A stretch of DNA of 46,347 nt. Origin: Phycisphaerales bacterium (GTDB lineage: Bacteria > Planctomycetota > Phycisphaerae > Phycisphaerales > UBA1924). Positions 1,430 to 23,544 of the stretch are shown here, piece after piece; position 1 is the stretch's first letter; each line of letters opens with the position of its first letter. Below the pieces are notes generated by a model that saw nothing but the letters and a program-made list of their open reading frames with translations, searched no databases and was not told where the DNA came from. The stretch covers positions 1 to 46,347 of the forward strand of contig RECY01000019.1 of NCBI GenBank assembly GCA_007693785.1. Direction: 5' to 3'. The translations under genes were made by a program, and so were the position numbers.

Positions 1430-2710
1430 ATGCAGGCTCCCCCATCTGTGCGTTGTCTCCGCGAGGCTCACGGGCACGTCTTTCAGCACGGGCGCAGCCT
1501 GGGCATGATCGATGCCTCGTCATTCGACGGGGGCGACGCACTGCTCGCGGCTTTCCGTGAGCGGGCCGCGGGCGTGCGCACGGACGGCGCGGCGCCCCTG
1601 CTGCTCGGCGACAAGGCCCGCCCGGAGGCGTGGGCGCGGACGCCCGGCGGCGGGAAGTGGCCGACGCTCGAAGGGTTTGACCGCGCGACCGCGGGGGCGG
1701 CCGCCCTCTGCTGGTGCTTCGACTACCACCAGCTCTTCGCCAACTCCGCGGCTCTCGCCCTCGCCGGCATCGACCAGCACACCCCGGACCCCGTCGGCGG
1801 ACGCATCGAGCGCGACGCGGACGGGCGGCCCACGGGCGTGCTGCTGGAAAAAGCCGCTCTGATGCTCTGGCACGCGATGCCCGAGCCCGACGAGAGCGAA
1901 CGCACCAGCCTGCTCCGCGCCGCGACGCATGACCTCGAGCACGTCCACGCCTTCCGCGAGGTCCACGATATGAAGGCCCAGCCCTGGCTGGGCCCGGCGC
2001 TGGCGGAACTCGACGACGCGGGCGAGCTGCGGGCGAGCTACCACCTCTGGCCCTTGATGGAGGATCTGGAAGCCTCGCACGCCTCGTGCGCGCGCTGGTC
2101 GCGCGAGCGGGTGCGCCTCGCGGGCGGAAAAATCTTTGTCGACGGCACGCTGAACAGCCGCACGGCCTGGATGCTCGCGCCCTACGCCGACGGGCCCCCC
2201 GAGCACCCGGCGGGCATGGCGATGATGTCGCCCGGGGCGATCGAGGATGCGGTGCGGCTGTGCGACGCGCTCGGCTTACCCCTCGCGGCGCACGCGATCG
2301 GGGACGGGGCCGTGCGCGCGGTGCTCGACGCGATCGAGCGCGTCCGCCCGCGCACGCCCGGCTTCCGCATCGAGCACTGCGAGCTGATCGACCCCGCGGA
2401 CGTGCCGCGGTTCGCCGAGCTGAGCGTGACCGCGAGCGTGCAGCCGTGCCATTTGTTGCCGGATATGGAAGCGCTGCGCGCGGGCGTGCCGGACCGCCTG
2501 GGGCGCGTGCTGCCGATCCGCGAGCTGCTCGACAGCGGCGCGCGGGTGATCTTCGGGAGCGACGTCCCGATCGTCCGCCCGCACCCGGGCGACTCGATCC
2601 AAGCGGGCGTGCATCGGCGGCGCGAAGGGATGAACGCCTCGGCGGCGATCGCGCCCGAGCAGGCGATCAGCGAAGACGAGGCGTGGGCGTGCTTCGACGC
2701 GGGGGCGTGA
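1430..2710 (+). CDS. YtcJ-type amidohydrolase, short form
   Basis: A 426-residue metal-dependent hydrolase of the amidohydrolase superfamily, YtcJ/N-substituted formamide deformylase branch; substrate unknown. Visible signatures in order are EAHGHVFQHG near residue 12 (the HxH metal site), KIFVDGTLNSRTA near 230 (family metal-site lysine region), HAIGDGAVRAVLDAIE near 285 (metal-site His), FRIEHCELI, and IFGSDVPIV near 370 (metal-site Asp). Known YtcJ proteins are about 520-560 residues and carry a beta-sandwich domain before the HxH motif; here the protein starts almost at that motif. An in-frame TAG at 1418-1420 rules out an upstream extension. The C-terminal part after the Asp motif is also short. 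It ends just before repeat element 2760-2912 and is convergent with the efflux gene. The fold is secure; activity is not. Confidence 0.85.
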   Translation: MQAPPSVRCLREAHGHVFQHGRSLGMIDASSFDGGDALLAAFRERAAGVRTDGAAPLLLGDKARPEAWARTPGGGKWPTLEGFDRATAGAAALCWCFDYHQLFANSAALALAGIDQHTPDPVGGRIERDADGRPTGVLLEKAALMLWHAMPEPDESERTSLLRAATHDLEHVHAFREVHDMKAQPWLGPALAELDDAGELRASYHLWPLMEDLEASHASCARWSRERVRLAGGKIFVDGTLNSRTAWMLAPYADGPPEHPAGMAMMSPGAIEDAVRLCDALGLPLAAHAIGDGAVRAVLDAIERVRPRTPGFRIEHCELIDPADVPRFAELSVTASVQPCHLLPDMEALRAGVPDRLGRVLPIRELLDSGARVIFGSDVPIVRPHPGDSIQAGVHRRREGMNASAAIAPEQAISEDEAWACFDAGA

Positions 2711-2759: not shown

Positions 2760-2912
2760 ATGTGCCACTGACCTCTTCCGAGAGGTCAGTGCTCCCCACC
2801 TTCCACCCCCTCCAACGCTCTCCTTGTTGCCAACGCCCGAGCGCCAAGCAGAGCGGGAGAAGAAGAAGGGCGGCCAAGAGCACTGACCTTGCGGACAAGG
2901 TCCGTGGCACAT
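2760..2912. repeat. MITE-like composite inverted repeat, copy 1
   Basis: The outer arms of about 35 bases are near-perfect inverted copies: the left begins ATGTGCCACTGACCT, the right ends AAGGTCCGTGGCACAT. Each arm is itself a hairpin: GACCTCT-TCCG-AGAGGTC on the left and GACCTTG-CGGA-CAAGGTC on the right. Bases differ between the arms but pairing is kept. The centre of about 80 bases has no frame of note. It fills the gap between the convergent amidohydrolase and efflux genes, so it could also serve as a two-way terminator. A second copy is at 9140-9287. Confidence 0.75.
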
Positions 2913-2936: not shown

Positions 2937-5900
2937 TCAGGGCGCGGGCGTCTTCGCGCGGGCTTCCGGCATGCCGGGCCTCGGTTCCGGCTTACCGGTC
3001 CAGAGGACGCGGATCGCCCACTGGATGTCGCCCAGGATCAGGAGCAGACAGGGCAGGACGATGAGGATGATCGCGGTCGCCGAGAGCAGGCCGAAGGCGA
3101 TCGTGATCGCCATGGGGATCAGGAACCGCGCCTGGAAGCTGGTCTCCAGCATGAGCGGCAGCAGCCCGAGCACGGTGGTGATCGTCGTGAGCAGGATCGC
3201 GCGGAACCGTGCCCGCCCGGCCTCCACGCACGCGCGGTACGGCGCGACGCCCTCGCGCCGCTTCTGGTTGAAGAACTCCATGTAGATCAGCGAGTCGTTC
3301 ACCACCACGCCCGAAAGCGCGATGAACCCGATCAGGCTCAGCATCGTCAGGTCAAAACCCAGCAGCACGTGCCCCCACACCATCCCGATGATCGCGAACG
3401 GCACCGCGCTCAGCACCAGCAGCGGCTGCGTGAAGCTCCCGAACAGCCACGCGAGGATCACGTAGATCAGCCCCGTCGCGACCAGCATCCCGAGCGGGAG
3501 CGTGCGGAAGCTGTCCTGCACGTCCTGCTGTCGCCCGCGCTCGACGATCCGCACGCCGGGGTGCTCGCGCCCGATCTCGCGAAGCTGGCCCTGGAACGAG
3601 GCCATCACCTGCTCGGGGTTCTGCACCGCCCGGTCGACGTCGGCGGTCACGGTCACGACGCGCCGGCGGTCCAGGCGACGGATCGTCGCGTAGCTCTCGC
3701 CCTCCTCGACGTAGGCGACCTCGCTCAGCGGCACCGCCTCGCCCGTCGGCGTGAACACGTGCATGTTCTCGATCGCGGCGATGCTGCGCCGGACGCGCTC
3801 GGGGGCCATGACGCGGACGTCGACGTCCTCGCGATCCCCGGCGAAGGTGAACGCCTCGAGCCCGAAGACCGCCGCCCGCACCTGGTCAGCGATGTTCCGC
3901 ACCGAGAACCCCAGCTCGCTCGCGCCCGGGCGCAGGCGGAACCGCATCTCGCGCTGCCCGGCCTCGGCGTCGTCGGCGAGGTCGAACACGCCCGGACGCG
4001 TCGCCAGCCCCGCGCGGAGCGAGGCGACGGCCGCCATGATGCGGCTCGGGTCGTCCCCGACCACCGCGAGCGAGATCGGGGGCCCGTCCGGCCCGCCCTG
4101 CACCTCGCTGAAGCGCAGCGTGCGGACGCCGGGCAGTTCGCCCAGCTCCTGGCGGATCGCGACGATCACACGCCCGCTCTCTCGCCCGCCCTGGGCCTGG
4201 CGCTGCTCCACCGGCGCGAGCTCCAGGATCACCTGCCCGAGGTGCGTCGCCTCCGACGAGCCCTCGCCCTCGATCGAGCCCAGCGCGCCCACCTGCGCGA
4301 AGACGCTCAGCACCTCGGGCTGCGCGAGCGAGGCCGCCTCGACCATGCGCACGATCGCATCGGTCTGCGCCGCGGGCGTCCCGATCGGCATCCGGATCTC
4401 GACGTTGACCGTCTCGGTGTCCTCGGCAGCCAGAAACGTGAACTCCAGGTGACCGCCGCGGACCATCCCGAGGCTGACCAGCACCAGCCCGATCGCGATC
4501 GCCAGGCTCAGCCAGCGCATCCGCAGCGCCGTCTCCAGCGAGCGCACATAAACCGGGATCAGCACCTTGCTGAACAGCCCGTCCCGCTTCTTCGCATAAG
4601 CGCGCTCGAAACGGGCGAACTTCGTCGTCGGGTGCTCGGCCTGCTCATCGATCTTCACCAGCGAGTGCGCCATGTGGCTCGGCAGGATGATCAGCACCTC
4701 GATCAGCGACACGCCCAGCGCCACCACCACCACCAGCGGGAGCACCGACAGCAGGTCCCCCACGCGCCCCTCGATCAGCGACAGCGGCAGGAACGCGCAC
4801 ATCGTCGTCAGCACCGTCGCCACCACCGGCCAGCCAACCTGGTTCGTCCCGCTGACGGCGGCCGAGTGGCTCGGCTCGCCCGCCTCGTGGCGCGCGATGA
4901 TGTTCTCCGACACCACGATCGCGTCGTCGACCAGGATCCCGATCACCACGATCAGGCCGAACATCGTCAGCAGGTTCAGCGTGATGTTCGCGAAGTACAT
5001 CGCCGCCAGCGTCCCCAGCAGCGAGACGATCAGCCCCAGCGCCACCCAGAAACTCACCCGCCAGTTGAGCAGCAGCAGCAGCGTGAGGAAGACCAGGAAC
5101 CCCCCGGCGAGCGCGTTCCGCGTCAGCAGCTCCAGGCGGTCCACGATGAACCGCGCCAGGTCGGTCGTCAGCGCCAGCTCGCCCGGGAGCGGCGTGCCCA
5201 CGCGGCTGCGCCCCAGCTCGTACGCCGCCATCCGGTCCGAGACCGGCGACTCCGAGCCCGGCGGGCGCGCGAGCGACGCCAGGCGCTCCCGCATGTTCAG
5301 CGTGATCGACTGCCCCGTCCGACCCGCGACGTACGCCTTCACGAGCTCGGACATCGAGACGGCGTCCTCGTCGCCCACCTTGTAGACCGTCAGGCCCGCC
5401 GACGGGCTACCGTTTAAACGCGTCCGCAGGTCGATATCGACAAAGCCGTCGCGGACCTCGGCGATCTCGCCGAGGCGCAGGCGCTGGCCGTCGCGGGCCG
5501 CGACCACGATCTGGCGCACCTCGCTCGCGGCGCGGTCGGCCCCGAGCGTGCGCACGCTCACGTTGCTCGTCCCGCTCCGCACCGCGCCCGCGGGGAGCTC
5601 GACCATCTCGTCCCGCACGCGCTGCGCGATCACCGGGAGGCTCAGCCCGTACTCGAGCATCGCCTCGGGGCGGACCTCGACGACGATCTCGTCGCGACGC
5701 ACGCCGCTGAGCAGCAGGTCCCCCATCCCCGGGAGCGTGAGCAGGTCGTCGCGGATACGCCGGATCGCGTCTTTCATCTCCCGCTCGGGGGCGTCCCCAA
5801 AGATCGAGAGGATGATCACCGGCAGGTTGGGCTCGAACTTGCGCACGCGGATGCGGTCGGCGTCCTCGGGCAGGTCCTGCAGCCCGTCGACCTCGCGCTG

Positions 5901-6224
5901 CACCTCCGCGACCGCGACGTCGGCGTTGATCCCCGGCGCAAACTCCACGCGGACCGTCGCGACGCCTTCGGAAACGGTCGTGTTGACCTCGACAACGTCG
6001 CTCAGGTCCGCGACGGCGTCCTCGATCTTGACGGCCAGCGCACGCTCGACCTCTTCCGGGGCCGCCCCGGGGTAGATCGCGGTGATCATGACCTCGTTCG
6101 GGCGCACTTCCGGGAAGAACTCGCGTCGCAGGTTGAGCCCGAAGATGATGCCCGCGCCGATGATCGCGAGCATGATCAGGTTCGCGACGACCGGCTTGCG
6201 GACGCCGAAGGACGCGAGGCTCAC
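2937..6224 (-). CDS. RND-family efflux pump inner-membrane permease
   Basis: A 1095-residue proton-driven exporter of the AcrB/MexB superfamily that would move small molecules across the envelope together with the adjacent adaptor. The N-terminus has the usual first helix (FGVRKPVVANLIMLAIIGAG). Helix 4 carries the proton-relay Asp pair D433-D434 in GILVDDAIVVSENI, and the second half has FIALSGVVVNDSLIYMEFF, the equivalent helix-10 region. Two large periplasmic loops lie between helices 1-2 and 7-8, as expected. Length is within the family range (about 1020-1100). The start is GTG at 6224, overlapping the stop of the adaptor gene by GTGA, which indicates translational coupling. No TolC-like channel gene is in view. 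The basic and proline-rich C-terminal tail is ordinary. Substrate cannot be read from sequence. Confidence 0.95.
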   Translation of the reverse strand: MSLASFGVRKPVVANLIMLAIIGAGIIFGLNLRREFFPEVRPNEVMITAIYPGAAPEEVERALAVKIEDAVADLSDVVEVNTTVSEGVATVRVEFAPGINADVAVAEVQREVDGLQDLPEDADRIRVRKFEPNLPVIILSIFGDAPEREMKDAIRRIRDDLLTLPGMGDLLLSGVRRDEIVVEVRPEAMLEYGLSLPVIAQRVRDEMVELPAGAVRSGTSNVSVRTLGADRAASEVRQIVVAARDGQRLRLGEIAEVRDGFVDIDLRTRLNGSPSAGLTVYKVGDEDAVSMSELVKAYVAGRTGQSITLNMRERLASLARPPGSESPVSDRMAAYELGRSRVGTPLPGELALTTDLARFIVDRLELLTRNALAGGFLVFLTLLLLLNWRVSFWVALGLIVSLLGTLAAMYFANITLNLLTMFGLIVVIGILVDDAIVVSENIIARHEAGEPSHSAAVSGTNQVGWPVVATVLTTMCAFLPLSLIEGRVGDLLSVLPLVVVVALGVSLIEVLIILPSHMAHSLVKIDEQAEHPTTKFARFERAYAKKRDGLFSKVLIPVYVRSLETALRMRWLSLAIAIGLVLVSLGMVRGGHLEFTFLAAEDTETVNVEIRMPIGTPAAQTDAIVRMVEAASLAQPEVLSVFAQVGALGSIEGEGSSEATHLGQVILELAPVEQRQAQGGRESGRVIVAIRQELGELPGVRTLRFSEVQGGPDGPPISLAVVGDDPSRIMAAVASLRAGLATRPGVFDLADDAEAGQREMRFRLRPGASELGFSVRNIADQVRAAVFGLEAFTFAGDREDVDVRVMAPERVRRSIAAIENMHVFTPTGEAVPLSEVAYVEEGESYATIRRLDRRRVVTVTADVDRAVQNPEQVMASFQGQLREIGREHPGVRIVERGRQQDVQDSFRTLPLGMLVATGLIYVILAWLFGSFTQPLLVLSAVPFAIIGMVWGHVLLGFDLTMLSLIGFIALSGVVVNDSLIYMEFFNQKRREGVAPYRACVEAGRARFRAILLTTITTVLGLLPLMLETSFQARFLIPMAITIAFGLLSATAIILIVLPCLLLILGDIQWAIRVLWTGKPEPRPGMPEARAKTPAP

Positions 6225-7933: not shown

Positions 7934-8923
7934 TCAGTCCTCGGGAACGTGATCGCTGGTGACGATCTCGCGGAACTTGGCGCGGAGCTTGGCGGTGACC
8001 GGGCCTTCGCCGTCGGAGATCTTGATCGTCTCGGTCACGTCGAGATTTTTGTGCTTGACGACCTCGCGAACGGCGATCATCTCGGCGGCCGAGCCGGTCA
8101 TGAAGATTTCCTCAGCGGCCAGGAGCTGATCGAGCGTGAGCTCGCGCTCTTCGATCTCGACGTTGCAGGCGGGGCAGAGGGTGTCAATGACGAAGCGCCG
8201 GGTGATGCCCTCGAGCAGGCCGCTGGTGACGGGCGGGGTGACGAGCTTGCCGTCGATGAGGGCGAAGATGTTGTCGCCGGAGCCCTCGGCGACCTTGCCC
8301 TCGGGGTTGAGCATGATGACCTCGAGGAGCTTGTCCTCGGTTGCGGTGATGCCGAGCTTCTCGGTGAGGTGGATCGCTTCGCACTTGCCGAGGATGTTGT
8401 TGAGGTAGTTGAGGCTCTTGATGCGGGGGTCGAGGCTGGCGACGGGGATGCGGGGGCGCTCGGCGACGGCGACCCGCATGCCAGACTTGTACATCGCTTC
8501 GGGGTAGAGGCGGATCTGGTCGGCGATGCAGATGATGCCGGCTCGGGGGCAGTTGTTGGGGTTGAGTCCGAGGTCGCCGACGCCGCGGGTGACGATGAGG
8601 CGGATGTAGCCGTTCACGATCCCGTTGGCCTCAACGCACTCGCGCTGGATGCGGGTCATCTCCTCGCGGGAGATGGGGATCTTGAGGTGGATCATCCCGG
8701 CCGAGGCCCAGAGGCGGTCGAGGTGCTGCTGGAGCTTGAAGATCTTGCCGTTGTAGACGCGAATGCCCTCGAAGACGCCGTCGCCGTAGAGCAGCCCGTG
8801 ATCAAAGACACTGACGGCGGCCTGGCTCTTGGGCAGGAGTTTGCCGTTGACATGGATGAGGGGCCTGTCGGTCGCCGTTTCGCGCGGGGCGGCGGCGGGT
8901 CGTGAAGAAGTGGTCTGAGTCAT
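7934..8923 (-). CDS. ilvE: Branched-chain amino acid aminotransferase (class IV PLP)
   Basis: A 329-residue class IV aminotransferase that exchanges amino groups between glutamate and the branched-chain keto acids, the last step of Leu/Ile/Val synthesis. Key segments are VSVFDHGLLYGDGVFEGIRV near residue 40, RIKSLNYLNNILGKCEA near 165 (Lys holding PLP), GKVAEGSGDNIF near 210, and EEIFMTGSAAEMIAV near 280. Length fits IlvE (about 290-340). The start is taken at 8923, not the upstream in-frame codon at 8968, because AAGGAGG lies 6 bases before this ATG. The gene stands alone, with repeat element 9140-9287 upstream and pheT beyond. D-amino-acid aminotransferase and aminodeoxychorismate lyase share the fold, but the EGIRVYNGKIF and SLNYLNN segments favour IlvE. 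Confidence 0.9.
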   Translation of the reverse strand: MTQTTSSRPAAAPRETATDRPLIHVNGKLLPKSQAAVSVFDHGLLYGDGVFEGIRVYNGKIFKLQQHLDRLWASAGMIHLKIPISREEMTRIQRECVEANGIVNGYIRLIVTRGVGDLGLNPNNCPRAGIICIADQIRLYPEAMYKSGMRVAVAERPRIPVASLDPRIKSLNYLNNILGKCEAIHLTEKLGITATEDKLLEVIMLNPEGKVAEGSGDNIFALIDGKLVTPPVTSGLLEGITRRFVIDTLCPACNVEIEERELTLDQLLAAEEIFMTGSAAEMIAVREVVKHKNLDVTETIKISDGEGPVTAKLRAKFREIVTSDHVPED

Positions 8924-8928
8924 CGGGG

Positions 8929-8935
8929 CCTCCTT
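8929..8935 (-). promoter_or_regulatory. Strong Shine-Dalgarno site of ilvE
   Basis: The minus strand reads AAGGAGG, a perfect match to the anti-Shine-Dalgarno sequence, 6 bases from the ATG at 8923. It decides the start over the codon 45 bases upstream. Confidence 0.85.
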
Positions 8936-9139
8936 ACCAGTGCGGTCGGCGGTGCGTCGAAGCAGCACGGGGCCGAGCCGCGCCAGTGTACCTGCTCCAT
9001 CAACGTTCGGATGCCGCTGCGGGATCGGTCCTTGGGGAATGTTTGGGAAAAAGGGGCGGCAATTGGGGGGTTCGGCGCGAGTGGGCTGGGTGGGGGCGGC
9101 AAGTTTGTGACGGCTTACCGAGCGGTGTGGCGGGGACCT
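8936..9139. other. Upstream region of ilvE, no gene
   Basis: About 200 noncoding bases with several G runs around 9050-9110. I see no clear sigma-70 boxes, leader peptide or T-box-like structure. The ilvE promoter should lie here or inside the adjacent repeat element. Confidence 0.5.
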
Positions 9140-9287
9140 GTGCCACTCACCTCTTCTAGAGGTCAGTGCTCCCCCACGCCTTCAACCTGTCCAACGCTCG
9201 TTCTCCCGAAAACGTGCTGCAGCGGAAGAGATCGAGAGAGGAGGGAAGGGCCCGGAGCACTGATCTTGGGGACAAGGTCCGTGGCAC
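9140..9287. repeat. MITE-like composite inverted repeat, copy 2
   Basis: Same design as 2760-2912. The left arm starts GTGCCACTCACCTCT, with hairpin ACCTCT-TCT-AGAGGT, and continues AGGTCAGTGCTC. The right arm is GAGCACTGATCTTG, loop, CAAGGTCCGTGGCAC. The GATCTTG/CAAGGTC stem has one G-T wobble in place of a C-G pair. The central sequence has drifted from copy 1 but keeps its length and TCCAACGCTC-like words. It lies between the pheT stop and ilvE. Confidence 0.75.
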
Positions 9288-9299
9288 GGGAGGGAGAAC

Positions 9300-9321
9300 A
9301 CAGGTCGGAGACCTGTGCCAC
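9300..9321. repeat. Short hairpin repeat unit next to pheT stop
   Basis: ACAGGTC-GGA-GACCTGT forms a perfect 7-bp stem followed by GCCAC. It lies 10 bases downstream of the pheT stop codon, in a terminator position, directly after the larger element 9140-9287. Confidence 0.65.
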
Positions 9322-9330
9322 CGCGGAGGG

Positions 9331-11430
9331 TCACGCTCGGAGCGTGGCGTTGAGCTTGGTTTTCGCCAAGTCGATCGCTCGTTCGACCTGCGGGTCAACT
9401 TCTTCGTGGCGGAGGGTTCGGGCGGGGTCGCGGAAGCGGAGTCGGAGGCTGAGGGATTTTTTGCCTTCGCCGAGCTGCTTGCCGCGGTAGACGCTGACGA
9501 AGGCCGCGGCTTCGAGGCGTTCGAGGCCCGCGCCGGCGATGAGGGCTTCGACGTCGCCCCAGCGTGTGGCTTCGTCGACGATGAGGGAGAGGTCGCGTTC
9601 GATGGGGGGGAAGGCCGGGAGGGGTTGGACGTGGCTCCGCGGGGGGAAGGCGGCCAGGAGCGGGGCGAGGTCGAGCTCTGCCGCGACGACGGGGATCTCG
9701 AGGTCGTAGGCCTTCTGGATCTTGTCGCTGAGCAGCCCGATGGTGCCGAGGTGGAGGGGCTCGTCGCCGGCGCGGACGAGGCGCACGCGTGCGCACGCGC
9801 CGGCCCGCCAGGCGGTCGTGGGCGGGTCGCAGGGTTCGAAGTCGGCGGCCCCGCGGACGTCGGCCATGGCGCGCCCGATCGCCTCGACCGTGCCGCGGAT
9901 GAGGCGGACGCCGGCTTGCAGGTCGTCGTCGGTGCGCTTCGTCCCTTCGCCCGGGGTGTCGAGGAGCATCGCGAGCGTGGGGCGTTCGGCGCTGCGCCCG
10001 TCGGTGGTCTCGGCGAAGACGGCCGAGGTCTCGTAGAGGCGGACCGTGCCGGGCGCCGCGGCTTGCGCGTCCTGGTTCTTGCGTCGGCAGGCGAGCAGGC
10101 TCGGGAGGACGCTGGGGCGGAGCGTGGGCTCGGCGCCGCGGCGCTCGTCGTCCACGCCCAGCACGCGCAGGCCTTCGCCCACGAAGGCCTCGGCGTCCTT
10201 CGGGCTCACGAAGCTGAACGTCACCGTCTCAGAGAAGCCCAGGCCCGTGAGCACGCGGGCGAGCTCGCGCATGGCGCGCTCCTCCTCCTGCGGCGCGCGG
10301 ACGCGCAGGGGAAACTTCTCCGGCGTCGGGATGTGGCTGAAGCCCTTCAGGCGGCAGATCTCTTCGATCAGGTCGATCTCGCGCGTCAGGTCGCCGCGGA
10401 AGGCGGGGATGGTGCAGACGAGCGTTGATGGGTCGTCGTGTTCGACGCCGACCTCGATCGCGCGGAGCAGGGCGATCATCTCGGCGTCCGGCAGGTCGTA
10501 GCCCAGGATCTGGCGGCAGCGCGCGGGGCGCATCGTGACGACGATGGGCTCGGGATCGGGCGCCCCCTCGCTGAGGGCGCCCTGGCAGAGCGTGCCGCCG
10601 GTGAGTTCGCAGATGAGGGCCGCGGCTCGCGTGGCGGCGTAGTCGATCTCGAGCGGGCTGACGCCGCGTTCGAAGCGGTAGCTCGCGTCGGTGCGGACCT
10701 TGTGCGCCCGGGCGGCGGTGCGCACGGTGACGGGGTCCCAGGTCGCCATCTCGAGCACGACGTCGGTCGTGGTCTGGCTGACCTCGCTGTCGGCTCCGCC
10801 GATGACGCCGGCGAGGCTGGTGGCGCGTTCGTCGTCGGCGACGACCAATTCGTCGCCGCGGAGCGTGCGGGCCTTGCCGTCGAGCGTCGTGAGCTTCTCG
10901 CCCGGCTCGGCGCAGCGGATGGTGAGCCGCCGACCGGCGAGCTTGGCGAGGTCGAAGACGTGGCAGGGGTGCCCGAGCTCGAAGTTGATGAAGTTGGTCA
11001 CGTCGACGACGTTGTTGATCGATCGCTGCCCGACGGCTTCCAGTCGTCGGACGAGCCAGTCGGGGCTGGGGCCGACCTTCACGTTGCGGATGACGCGAGC
11101 GGTGAAGAGCGGGCAGAGCTCGGGGGTCTCGTTGACGAGTTCGAGATGGTCGTCGATCGCGCCGGCGGCCTTCGGGTCGCTCCACCCGGGCATGACCAGT
11201 CGTCGCCCCGTGGCGGCCGCCGCCTCGCGCGCGAGCCCGATGTGGCTCAGGCAGTCGCCGCGGTTACTGGTGATCTCCACGTCCATGCGGACGTCCCCGC
11301 CCGGGAGCGCCAGGCGCTCCTCGATCGGGAAGCCGGCGTGCGTCAGGGCCTCCTCGGCCTGGTCGGGCGAGAGCGCCCCGTCCGGGCCCGGGGCGAGGTG
11401 CGCGTTGAGCCATTCGAGACTGATGTTCAT
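9331..11430 (-). CDS. pheT: Phenylalanine-tRNA ligase beta subunit, lacking the OB-fold domain
   Basis: The 699-residue beta chain of the heterotetrameric PheRS that charges tRNA-Phe. It starts MNISLEWLNAHL as in the family, but goes from about residue 38 (AGFPIEERLAL) straight to the B1 segment MDVEITSNRGDCLSHIGLARE. The B2 OB-fold (EMAP-like tRNA-binding domain, about 110 residues in E. coli PheT, which has 795) is absent. The B3/B4 editing domain follows, with FELGHPCHVFDLAKL, then B5, the catalytic-like core (GFSETVTFSFVSPKDAEAF), and the C-terminal ferredoxin-fold anticodon-binding domain (FPPIERDLSLIVDE to LRHEEVDPQVERAI). pheS is not adjacent. The phosphatase gene ends 61 bases upstream on the same strand. 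The frame is intact across the missing domain, so this is a lineage feature, not a broken gene. Confidence 0.95.
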   Translation of the reverse strand: MNISLEWLNAHLAPGPDGALSPDQAEEALTHAGFPIEERLALPGGDVRMDVEITSNRGDCLSHIGLAREAAAATGRRLVMPGWSDPKAAGAIDDHLELVNETPELCPLFTARVIRNVKVGPSPDWLVRRLEAVGQRSINNVVDVTNFINFELGHPCHVFDLAKLAGRRLTIRCAEPGEKLTTLDGKARTLRGDELVVADDERATSLAGVIGGADSEVSQTTTDVVLEMATWDPVTVRTAARAHKVRTDASYRFERGVSPLEIDYAATRAAALICELTGGTLCQGALSEGAPDPEPIVVTMRPARCRQILGYDLPDAEMIALLRAIEVGVEHDDPSTLVCTIPAFRGDLTREIDLIEEICRLKGFSHIPTPEKFPLRVRAPQEEERAMRELARVLTGLGFSETVTFSFVSPKDAEAFVGEGLRVLGVDDERRGAEPTLRPSVLPSLLACRRKNQDAQAAAPGTVRLYETSAVFAETTDGRSAERPTLAMLLDTPGEGTKRTDDDLQAGVRLIRGTVEAIGRAMADVRGAADFEPCDPPTTAWRAGACARVRLVRAGDEPLHLGTIGLLSDKIQKAYDLEIPVVAAELDLAPLLAAFPPRSHVQPLPAFPPIERDLSLIVDEATRWGDVEALIAGAGLERLEAAAFVSVYRGKQLGEGKKSLSLRLRFRDPARTLRHEEVDPQVERAIDLAKTKLNATLRA

Positions 11431-23469: not shown

Positions 23470-23544
23470 GTGGCCGTAGCTCAGCTTGGTTAGAGCACCT
23501 GGTTGTGATCCAGGATGTCGCGGGTTCGAATCCCGTCGGTCACC
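23470..23544 (+). tRNA. tRNA-His (GUG)
   Basis: A full cloverleaf: acceptor GTGGCCG with CGGTCAC, D-arm AGCTCAGCTTGGTTAGAGC, anticodon arm CCTGG-TTGTGAT-CCAGG with anticodon GTG, T-arm GCGGG-TTCGAAT-CCCGT, discriminator C. A G at 23469 supplies the extra G-1 that faces C73, the identity pair of tRNA-His. CCA is not encoded. Confidence 0.97.

Follow-up and report, generated by a model that had tools for sequence, protein, structure and literature searches.

What kind of element is a sequence of about 150 bp that lies between genes, carries no internal transposase gene and has two arms that fold into hairpins despite their unlike sequence, and what could have moved it? Two such sequences occur in the 46,347-nucleotide stretch of DNA analysed here (the window), which belongs to the draft genome of a Phycisphaerales bacterium (3.06 Mb in 45 contigs, 95.5% complete). 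An earlier, sequence-only reading had taken them for a MITE-like element moved in trans, with hairpins preserved by compensatory changes through selection on folded RNA or single-stranded DNA, and had proposed to look for further copies with covarying stems across the genome.

The window copies and their family in the genome

Both elements consist of two arms of 32-33 nt each, in inverted orientation around an 83-nt spacer (copy 1, 2761-2911; copy 2, 9139-9287; Table 1). As read directly from the letters, the arms span 2762-2794 and 2878-2910 in copy 1, and 9140-9171 and 9255-9287 in copy 2. The general layout of an arm, read from the outside inwards, is TGTGC, an 11-bp stem starting with CAC, a short loop, a return strand ending with GTG, and CT, where the conserved TGTGC and CT ends are unpaired. 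In the left arm of copy 1, read in this direction on the plus strand, the TGTGC tag is followed by the 11-bp hairpin CACTGACCTCT-TCCG-AGAGGTCAGTG and then CTC, while the right arm forms CACTGACCTTG-CGGA-CAAGGTCCGTG with one T-C mismatch; this mismatch and the two in copy 2 were judged by eye and are absent from the list of stems in the earlier reading. The stems of 6-7 bp quoted in the sequence-only reading are all present, including the G-T wobble in GATCTTG/CAAGGTC; these stems are the inner part of a full stem of 11 bp (CACTGACCTCT/AGAGGTCAGTG). The arms of copy 1 form an inverted repeat of 38 nt at 84%, and its fold beats 200 of 200 dinucleotide shuffles (z -7.2), compared to a weaker fold in copy 2 (z -2.65, with one of 200 shuffles as good).

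Table 1. Features at and around the two elements, in window coordinates
Feature	Position	Strand	Remarks
Amidohydrolase gene, copy 1 neighbour	1430..2710	+	ends ~50 bp ahead of element
Copy 1 left arm, tip type A	2761..2794	-	TGTGC tag, 11-bp hairpin, CTC
Copy 1 spacer, 83 nt	2795..2877		GGGCGGCC motif close to right end
Copy 1 right arm, tip type B	2878..2911	+	outer end GCACA
AcrB-type efflux gene, copy 1 neighbour	2937..6224	-	converges on element
Class IV aminotransferase gene, copy 2 neighbour	7934..8968	-	downstream of pheT
Copy 2 left arm, tip type A	9139..9171	-	CACTCACCTCT-TCT-AGAGGTCAGTG, one C-C mismatch
Copy 2 spacer, 83 nt	9172..9254
Copy 2 right arm, tip type B	9255..9287	+	CACTGATCTTG-GGGA-CAAGGTCCGTG, one T-C mismatch
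Different, solitary REP-like unit	9299..9321	-	GTGG, then CACAGGTC-TCC-GACCTGTG; read by eye
pheT (phenylalanyl-tRNA synthetase beta chain), copy 2 neighbour	9331..11430	-	upstream gene

Comparison with the predicted genes confirmed that both copies are intergenic. An Rfam scan of the whole window at gathering scores matched a tRNA at 23470-23544 and nothing else. The aminotransferase beside copy 2 has its nearest protein matches in Planctomycetota and Phycisphaerales MAGs, at 67-69% identity. Next to the same copy, the solitary REP-like unit bears a GTGG tag of the published type, and a 16-nt part of this unit recurs at 9131-9146, reaching into the left end of copy 2.

The two elements belong to a large family, here called F1. 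A DNA search of the genome with copy 1 gave 99 overlapping matches, and a covariance model of the arm (R1), built from 77 arms, identified at least 133 full-length F1 arms (E <= 1.5e-6), a lower bound because scoring covered 150 of the 1617 first-look candidates. The arm alignment (A1) leaves out two fuzzy matches and includes two arms added by hand. The 133 arms make up 50 inverted doublets and 33 single arms, with 100 arms in doublets. Neighbouring arms within 330 bp (53 pairs) were almost always in -/+ order (50 pairs), with two pairs in +/- and one in +/+ order, and the doublet spacer had a median of 81 nt (range 2-236). The outer GTGGCAC was exact in 114 of 133 arms, and CT stood on the inner side in 125. 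No F1 unit (0 of 83) lay more than 30% inside a predicted gene, though 82% of the stretches were coding, as judged by a simple codon-usage gene caller written for this analysis; one doublet overlapped a gene end by 6 nt. The gaps holding the 50 doublets were co-directional in 23 cases, convergent in 17 and divergent in 9, with one at a contig edge. A multi-copy, non-coding, intergenic element with hairpin-keeping arms is supported by the genome-wide search, which found many copies rather than two.

Other repeats were seen in and around this family. A third hairpin type (CACGGCTTGG..) lies inside three F1 spacers (G000 C13:20548, C13:267675 and C24:49604), and a similar stem, CACGGCTTGC, flanks RAYTs (REP-associated tyrosine transposases) at three loci (L089, L090 and L113). 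At another locus (L295, G024:C117), eight F1-like units stand head-to-tail, the first seven at a period of 32 nt.

Stem pairing and the two arm types

Among 76 distinct F1 arms, 97.4% of the 834 stem cells were paired, compared to a shuffled mean of 90.5% (0 of 500 shuffles as high). The stems are largely paired across these arms, but the case for compensatory change within the genome is more limited. Both the share of paired cells and the share of cells changed on both sides lay above all shuffles, while the number of stem pairs changed on both sides, 3 of 11, did not (shuffled mean 2.3, 187 of 500 as high). Two of these three are the tip pairs, which exist in two states: arms of type A (TCT..AGA), about half of the total, have C-G and T-A there, and arms of type B (TTG..CAA), the other half, have T-A and G-C; the third changes from T-A to G-C in two arms and is broken in eight others. 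The paired changes within the genome are real but are chiefly one old two-state dichotomy at two tip pairs, on which the excess of cells changed on both sides rests. Between genera the evidence is stronger. The comparison used 103 matches to R1 found in relatives, with 90 distinct rows once identical ones were counted a single time; this alignment (A2) includes some overlapping loci and was fitted to structure, which favours pairing. In it, 99.7% of 942 cells were paired, compared to 21.5-54% in slid controls, and 6 of 11 stem pairs showed changes on both strands of the stem (shuffled mean 3.4, with 3 of 500 shuffles as high). The earlier claim of compensatory changes is upheld in part, with compensation beyond the tip dichotomy seen only between genera.

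The two tip types are distributed unevenly over the doublets. Forty-five of the 50 F1 doublets combine one A and one B arm in either order, three are BB, none is AA and two are untyped (their arms differ). Random pairing of arms would give at least 45 unlike doublets with a probability of 1.6e-9, a figure that is no test of selection because the copies are related. Neither type belongs to a fixed end of the element, since a spacer mark, GGGCGGCCCG, which stands beside one arm and could be placed in 31 doublets, adjoins the A arm in 14 unlike doublets and the B arm in 14 others, the remaining three being two BB doublets and one untyped. On a spacer tree of 28 doublets, the label for A or B at a given end was scattered much as in shuffled data, with 8 changes compared to a shuffled mean of 9.6 (111 of 500 shuffles as low), although with one of 25 inner branches well supported this tree is too weak to count swaps.

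Folding energies bear on what the difference between arms may do. With DNA parameters, the average gain from folding the whole element rather than its three separate parts was 5.1 kcal/mol (range 0.4 to 11.8) for natural A/B doublets, of which the 42 with 110-200 nt were folded out of 45 unlike ones, compared to 22.6 and 23.0 kcal/mol in computer-made like-armed versions and 16-19 kcal/mol in the three natural BB doublets. Like arms thus differ from unlike ones by about 17-18 kcal/mol in computed folding cost, a result that favours, short of proof, the view that a doublet with unlike arms has its two hairpins separately available. We tentatively put forward, with somewhat less than even confidence, an enforced two-arm rule by which a doublet would work only with one arm of each type, A and B, at either end, because unlike arms would fold separately for the transposase rather than pair with each other, because the enzyme would tell the ends apart by type, or for both reasons. 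It is also possible that the unlike arms may reflect simple inheritance from a few founders.

In relatives the picture, read by eye, is mixed. Both arms were found in 11 doublets among 20 loci of G044, and all 11 had unlike tips; the doublets of L072 and L079 also have arms that differ. Like-armed doublets occur in G024 (L299) and G016 (L071), and no inverted doublet was seen in 15 loci of G001. The unlike-arm habit is not universal among the genera examined.

RAYT genes in relatives and in the genome of the window

In a set of 100 genomes of the same family, including that of the window, 46 had R1 matches at E <= 1e-4. The NCBIfam model for REP-associated tyrosine transposases (E <= 0.001) matched 67 of the 100 genomes, among the matches listed, and 58 of them above its cut-off, with some of its matches lying inside larger proteins. 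R1 matches at E < 0.01 were found in 9 of 30 RAYT loci and in 6 of 20 further loci, one of which repeats the first set. This sample of loci was non-random, consisting of the best-scoring ones plus hand-picked ones; of the 50, the flank and tag counts exclude two repeats (L112 and L117) and six loci with a tblastn E > 1e-20, and these six are also absent from the tree described below. Two genomes of one genus, G044 and G088, have 41 and 26 R1 matches, respectively, and no RAYT match in either.

Around 42 stand-alone RAYT genes, the one of the window's genome included, 71 hairpins (net stem score >= 9) were counted in 22.3 kb of flanks compared to one in 22.5 kb of coding bodies. GTGC lay at the foot of the hairpin or within one base of it in 60 of the 71, and sequence more than 450 bp from the RAYT genes (76.8 kb) held 25 hairpins, seven of them tagged. 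A tagged hairpin was present at 22 of the 42 genes, on both sides at 14, and absent at 20. While the stems vary among RAYTs, the GTGC tag is constant, and 44 of 55 units with the exact tag have a CAC foot. CT adjoins the hairpin in 23 of these 55 RAYT-flanking units (14% expected), and for this reason the conserved inner CT of F1 stays a suggestion as to the cut site.

Stems of the F1 type occur at RAYT genes of G076, G059, G069, G028 and others. One clade of 13 members (support 100/99) takes in ten of the 11 RAYTs with a CACNGA label (0 of 500 shuffles as low), the exception being L124. The strict count is 9 of 10, because L093, labelled CACNGA and within the clade, has stems that read CACCGG. 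Labels were assigned from the flanking stems before the tree was built, leaving 21 of 42 rows unlabelled, and the hairpin lists for this typing needed a CAC..GTG-like foot, which the flank and tag counts did not.

The RAYT gene of the window's own genome (C13:27107-27610; 106.5 bits against the NCBIfam cut-off of 80) is the assembly's only match to the RAYT model and is placed outside the CACNGA clade; a search for a second or broken RAYT with one protein of that clade (E <= 10) found only this known gene. In the 7-kb stretch around it (L112) there is no R1 match at E <= 0.5, and pattern searches for F1 arms gave results at chance level; the genome therefore shows no RAYT gene flanked by F1. 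What flanks the resident RAYT on both sides (L112:2940-3091 and 3651-3802) are copies, 90% identical to each other, of a second family of doublets of about 150 bp, F2, which occupies 42 places in the genome after merging, partial ones included. The left foot of F2 is CCGGAAA/TTTTCCGG and its right foot is ATGGAAA/TTTCCAT in most copies; the tips of the right arm vary widely, mostly still complementary. F1 and F2 have in common the outer GTGCC end and the doublet design, but their stems differ.

The two families are also found close together. Of the 33 single F1 arms, 11 have an F2 copy within 200 bp, and 7 of the 50 F1 doublets have one beside or inside them. F2 is inside two of the latter: at C2:159779-160081, the 236-nt spacer minus 147 nt of F2 leaves 89 nt, near the usual 81, while at C19:9183-9427 only 33 nt remain, so this second case is no simple F2 insertion. 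On G000 contig C14, an F2 copy comes after each of five single B arms, at 17-24 nt in four cases, and the composite itself recurs.

With the resident RAYT in another clade and flanked by F2, and nothing else found, the cognate RAYT of F1 is likely absent from the assembly, either lost or located in the unassembled part. Since the search of the assembly gave no RAYT from the clade that matches F1, the family is probably orphaned here, or almost so.

RAYT domains were also observed within other reading frames in relatives. At L301:1931-5821 (+) and L302:808-4656 (-), leucyl-tRNA synthetase carries such a domain in frame, immediately ahead of its editing domain (948 and 933 bits to TIGR00396, and 84 and 81.5 bits to NF047646 with its cut-off of 80), and the HVH and Y..NP motifs are readable by eye in the inserts. 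The same order was found at L106 by tblastn, and at L098:61-2424 (+) and L105:1-2178 (-) the RAYT domain lies within a reading frame for valyl-tRNA synthetase that is truncated by the contig. At least 32 matches to the RAYT model have open frames above 750 aa, of which five were examined; the length of an open frame is by itself no proof of such an insertion. The leuS of the window's own genome has no RAYT insert, and among the papers listed in literature searches we found none on a RAYT domain inside an aminoacyl-tRNA synthetase, as judged by title and the start of the abstract.

Class assignment, rival explanations and known systems

Several features indicate that F1 is very probably a REPIN-type element, a pair of hairpins that a RAYT would mobilise. 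It is a short palindrome in many dispersed intergenic copies, its main unit is the inverted doublet, and GTGC-foot hairpins stand beside RAYT genes in this bacterial family. The conserved tetranucleotide 5' of the palindrome is present as GTGC and not as the published GT[AG]G, and F1 is accordingly filed as a variant rather than a canonical REP. By this model, each arm could fold as a hairpin once the DNA is single-stranded; a RAYT, an HUH/Y1 transposase and kin of IS200/IS605, would recognise the tag-bearing strand of the arm, with GTGC 5' of the stem, and would cut close by, perhaps at the CT that adjoins the hairpin on its 3' side, after which the doublet would be copied or moved in trans. 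Judging from sequence comparison, recognition, cutting and movement of F1 by a RAYT are probable. The earlier proposal of movement in trans by a transposase thus gains from the same-type hairpins that flank RAYT genes in relatives, a link of homology only. Because of the RAYT link, folded single-stranded DNA appears favoured over folded RNA as what is selected.

There are several potential alternatives to this assignment or to the orphaned state of F1. It is possible, though unlikely, that the resident RAYT also mobilises F1 in trans, so that F1 is not orphaned. The resident gene is the sole RAYT match in the assembly, and the shared outer end and doublet design of the two families and the proximity of their copies agree with this. 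However, the stem type flanking a RAYT goes with the clade of that RAYT, the stems of F1 and F2 are unlike, and in published work each RAYT is tied to its own REP type (PMC6006769). We consider it distinctly improbable that the hairpins persist because of a function in RNA, such as ending, insulating or stabilising transcripts at gene ends. In raw comparisons without significance tests, doublets are convergent in 17 of 49 gaps against 21% of the intergenic length (a length that includes the elements) and divergent in 9 of 49 against 30% (same stretches, both neighbours known). Such placement is, on the other hand, usual for REPs (PMC3733652), and a scan for consensus terminators (hairpin plus T run) found no site at either window element (2761-2911 or 9139-9287). 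A role in RNA would also leave the fixed tag and the RAYT link unexplained. In relatives, pheT lies upstream in 6 of the 13 aminotransferase loci examined, and these six have no R1 match, as is the case for all 11 of the loci searched.

The label MITE-like, in the sense of a non-autonomous DDE transposon defined by its terminal inverted repeats, fared worst, and we regard this origin as extremely improbable. The inverted repeats, the size of about 150 bp and the missing transposase gene would agree with it, but direct repeats of at least 4 nt were found at 2 of the 50 doublets compared to a shuffled mean of 5.3, and for this lack of target-site duplication a DDE-type MITE was rejected. Moreover, the arms are themselves self-complementary hairpins, and matching hairpins flank RAYT genes. 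A lack of target-site duplication is expected for IS200/IS605-type chemistry. No empty site or excision was seen; with protein identities of 58-69%, no exact junction can be drawn at the aminotransferase loci of relatives.

The closest known systems share much with F1. Like the REPINs of Pseudomonas fluorescens SBW25 (PMC3116915), F1 is an inverted doublet of short palindromes with a spacer of tens of bases, is intergenic and RAYT-linked, and occurs mostly as doublets with some singles (61% of REPs there, 100 of 133 arms here); compensatory changes have already been noted in those REPINs (PMC3116915). F1 differs from them in its GTGC tag, its perfect 11-bp stems, its arms that are almost always unlike in type and the lack of a matching RAYT in the assembly. 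The BIMEs of E. coli likewise pair two unit types (Y and Z) in inverted orientation, but these units carry GTAG as their tag and require a bulge, while F1 stems are unbulged (PMC8266576). In REPtrons and the TnpA-REP subclasses, RAYT genes are flanked by hairpins with a foot tetranucleotide, as for the F1-type stems, and cutting is strand-specific near CT (PMC6006769, PMC8266576). A CT cut is reported for the enzymes of E. coli, S. maltophilia and Marinomonas, which the inner CT of F1 matches (PMC8266576). Canonical TnpA-REP subclasses carry GT[AG]G (PMC6006769). Subclass 2.6 and class 3, the latter chiefly from Planctomycetes, are described there as having no GT[AG]G and weaker structures, whereas the stems of F1 are strong (PMC6006769). 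The resident RAYT reads YCHINP, compared to the Y----Q quoted for class 3 (PMC6006769, PMC8266576).

REPs in Planctomycetes are on record (PMC3733652), while a literature search combining Phycisphaer with 'repetitive extragenic palindromic' returned no paper. According to a survey of GTAG-tagged REP dimers, several families contain heterodimers whose stems or loops differ, a preference described there as without obvious explanation (PMC3733652); in F1, the pairing habit can be set against an internal polarity mark. The REPIN type itself is known, and F1 is a variant of it that has a GTGC tag and a habit of unlike arms. The string GTGC is absent from the main text of both REP surveys (PMC3733652, PMC6006769), whose motifs are listed in figures and supplements outside that text, and the tag may already be on record in the supplementary motif table of PMC6006769.

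These findings link the type of REP stem with the clade of the RAYT in a phylum that has received little study, and F1 displays a tag not found in the main text of the two surveys (PMC3733652, PMC6006769). In addition, the preference for unlike arms, left unexplained in the published survey of REP dimers, becomes testable in F1.
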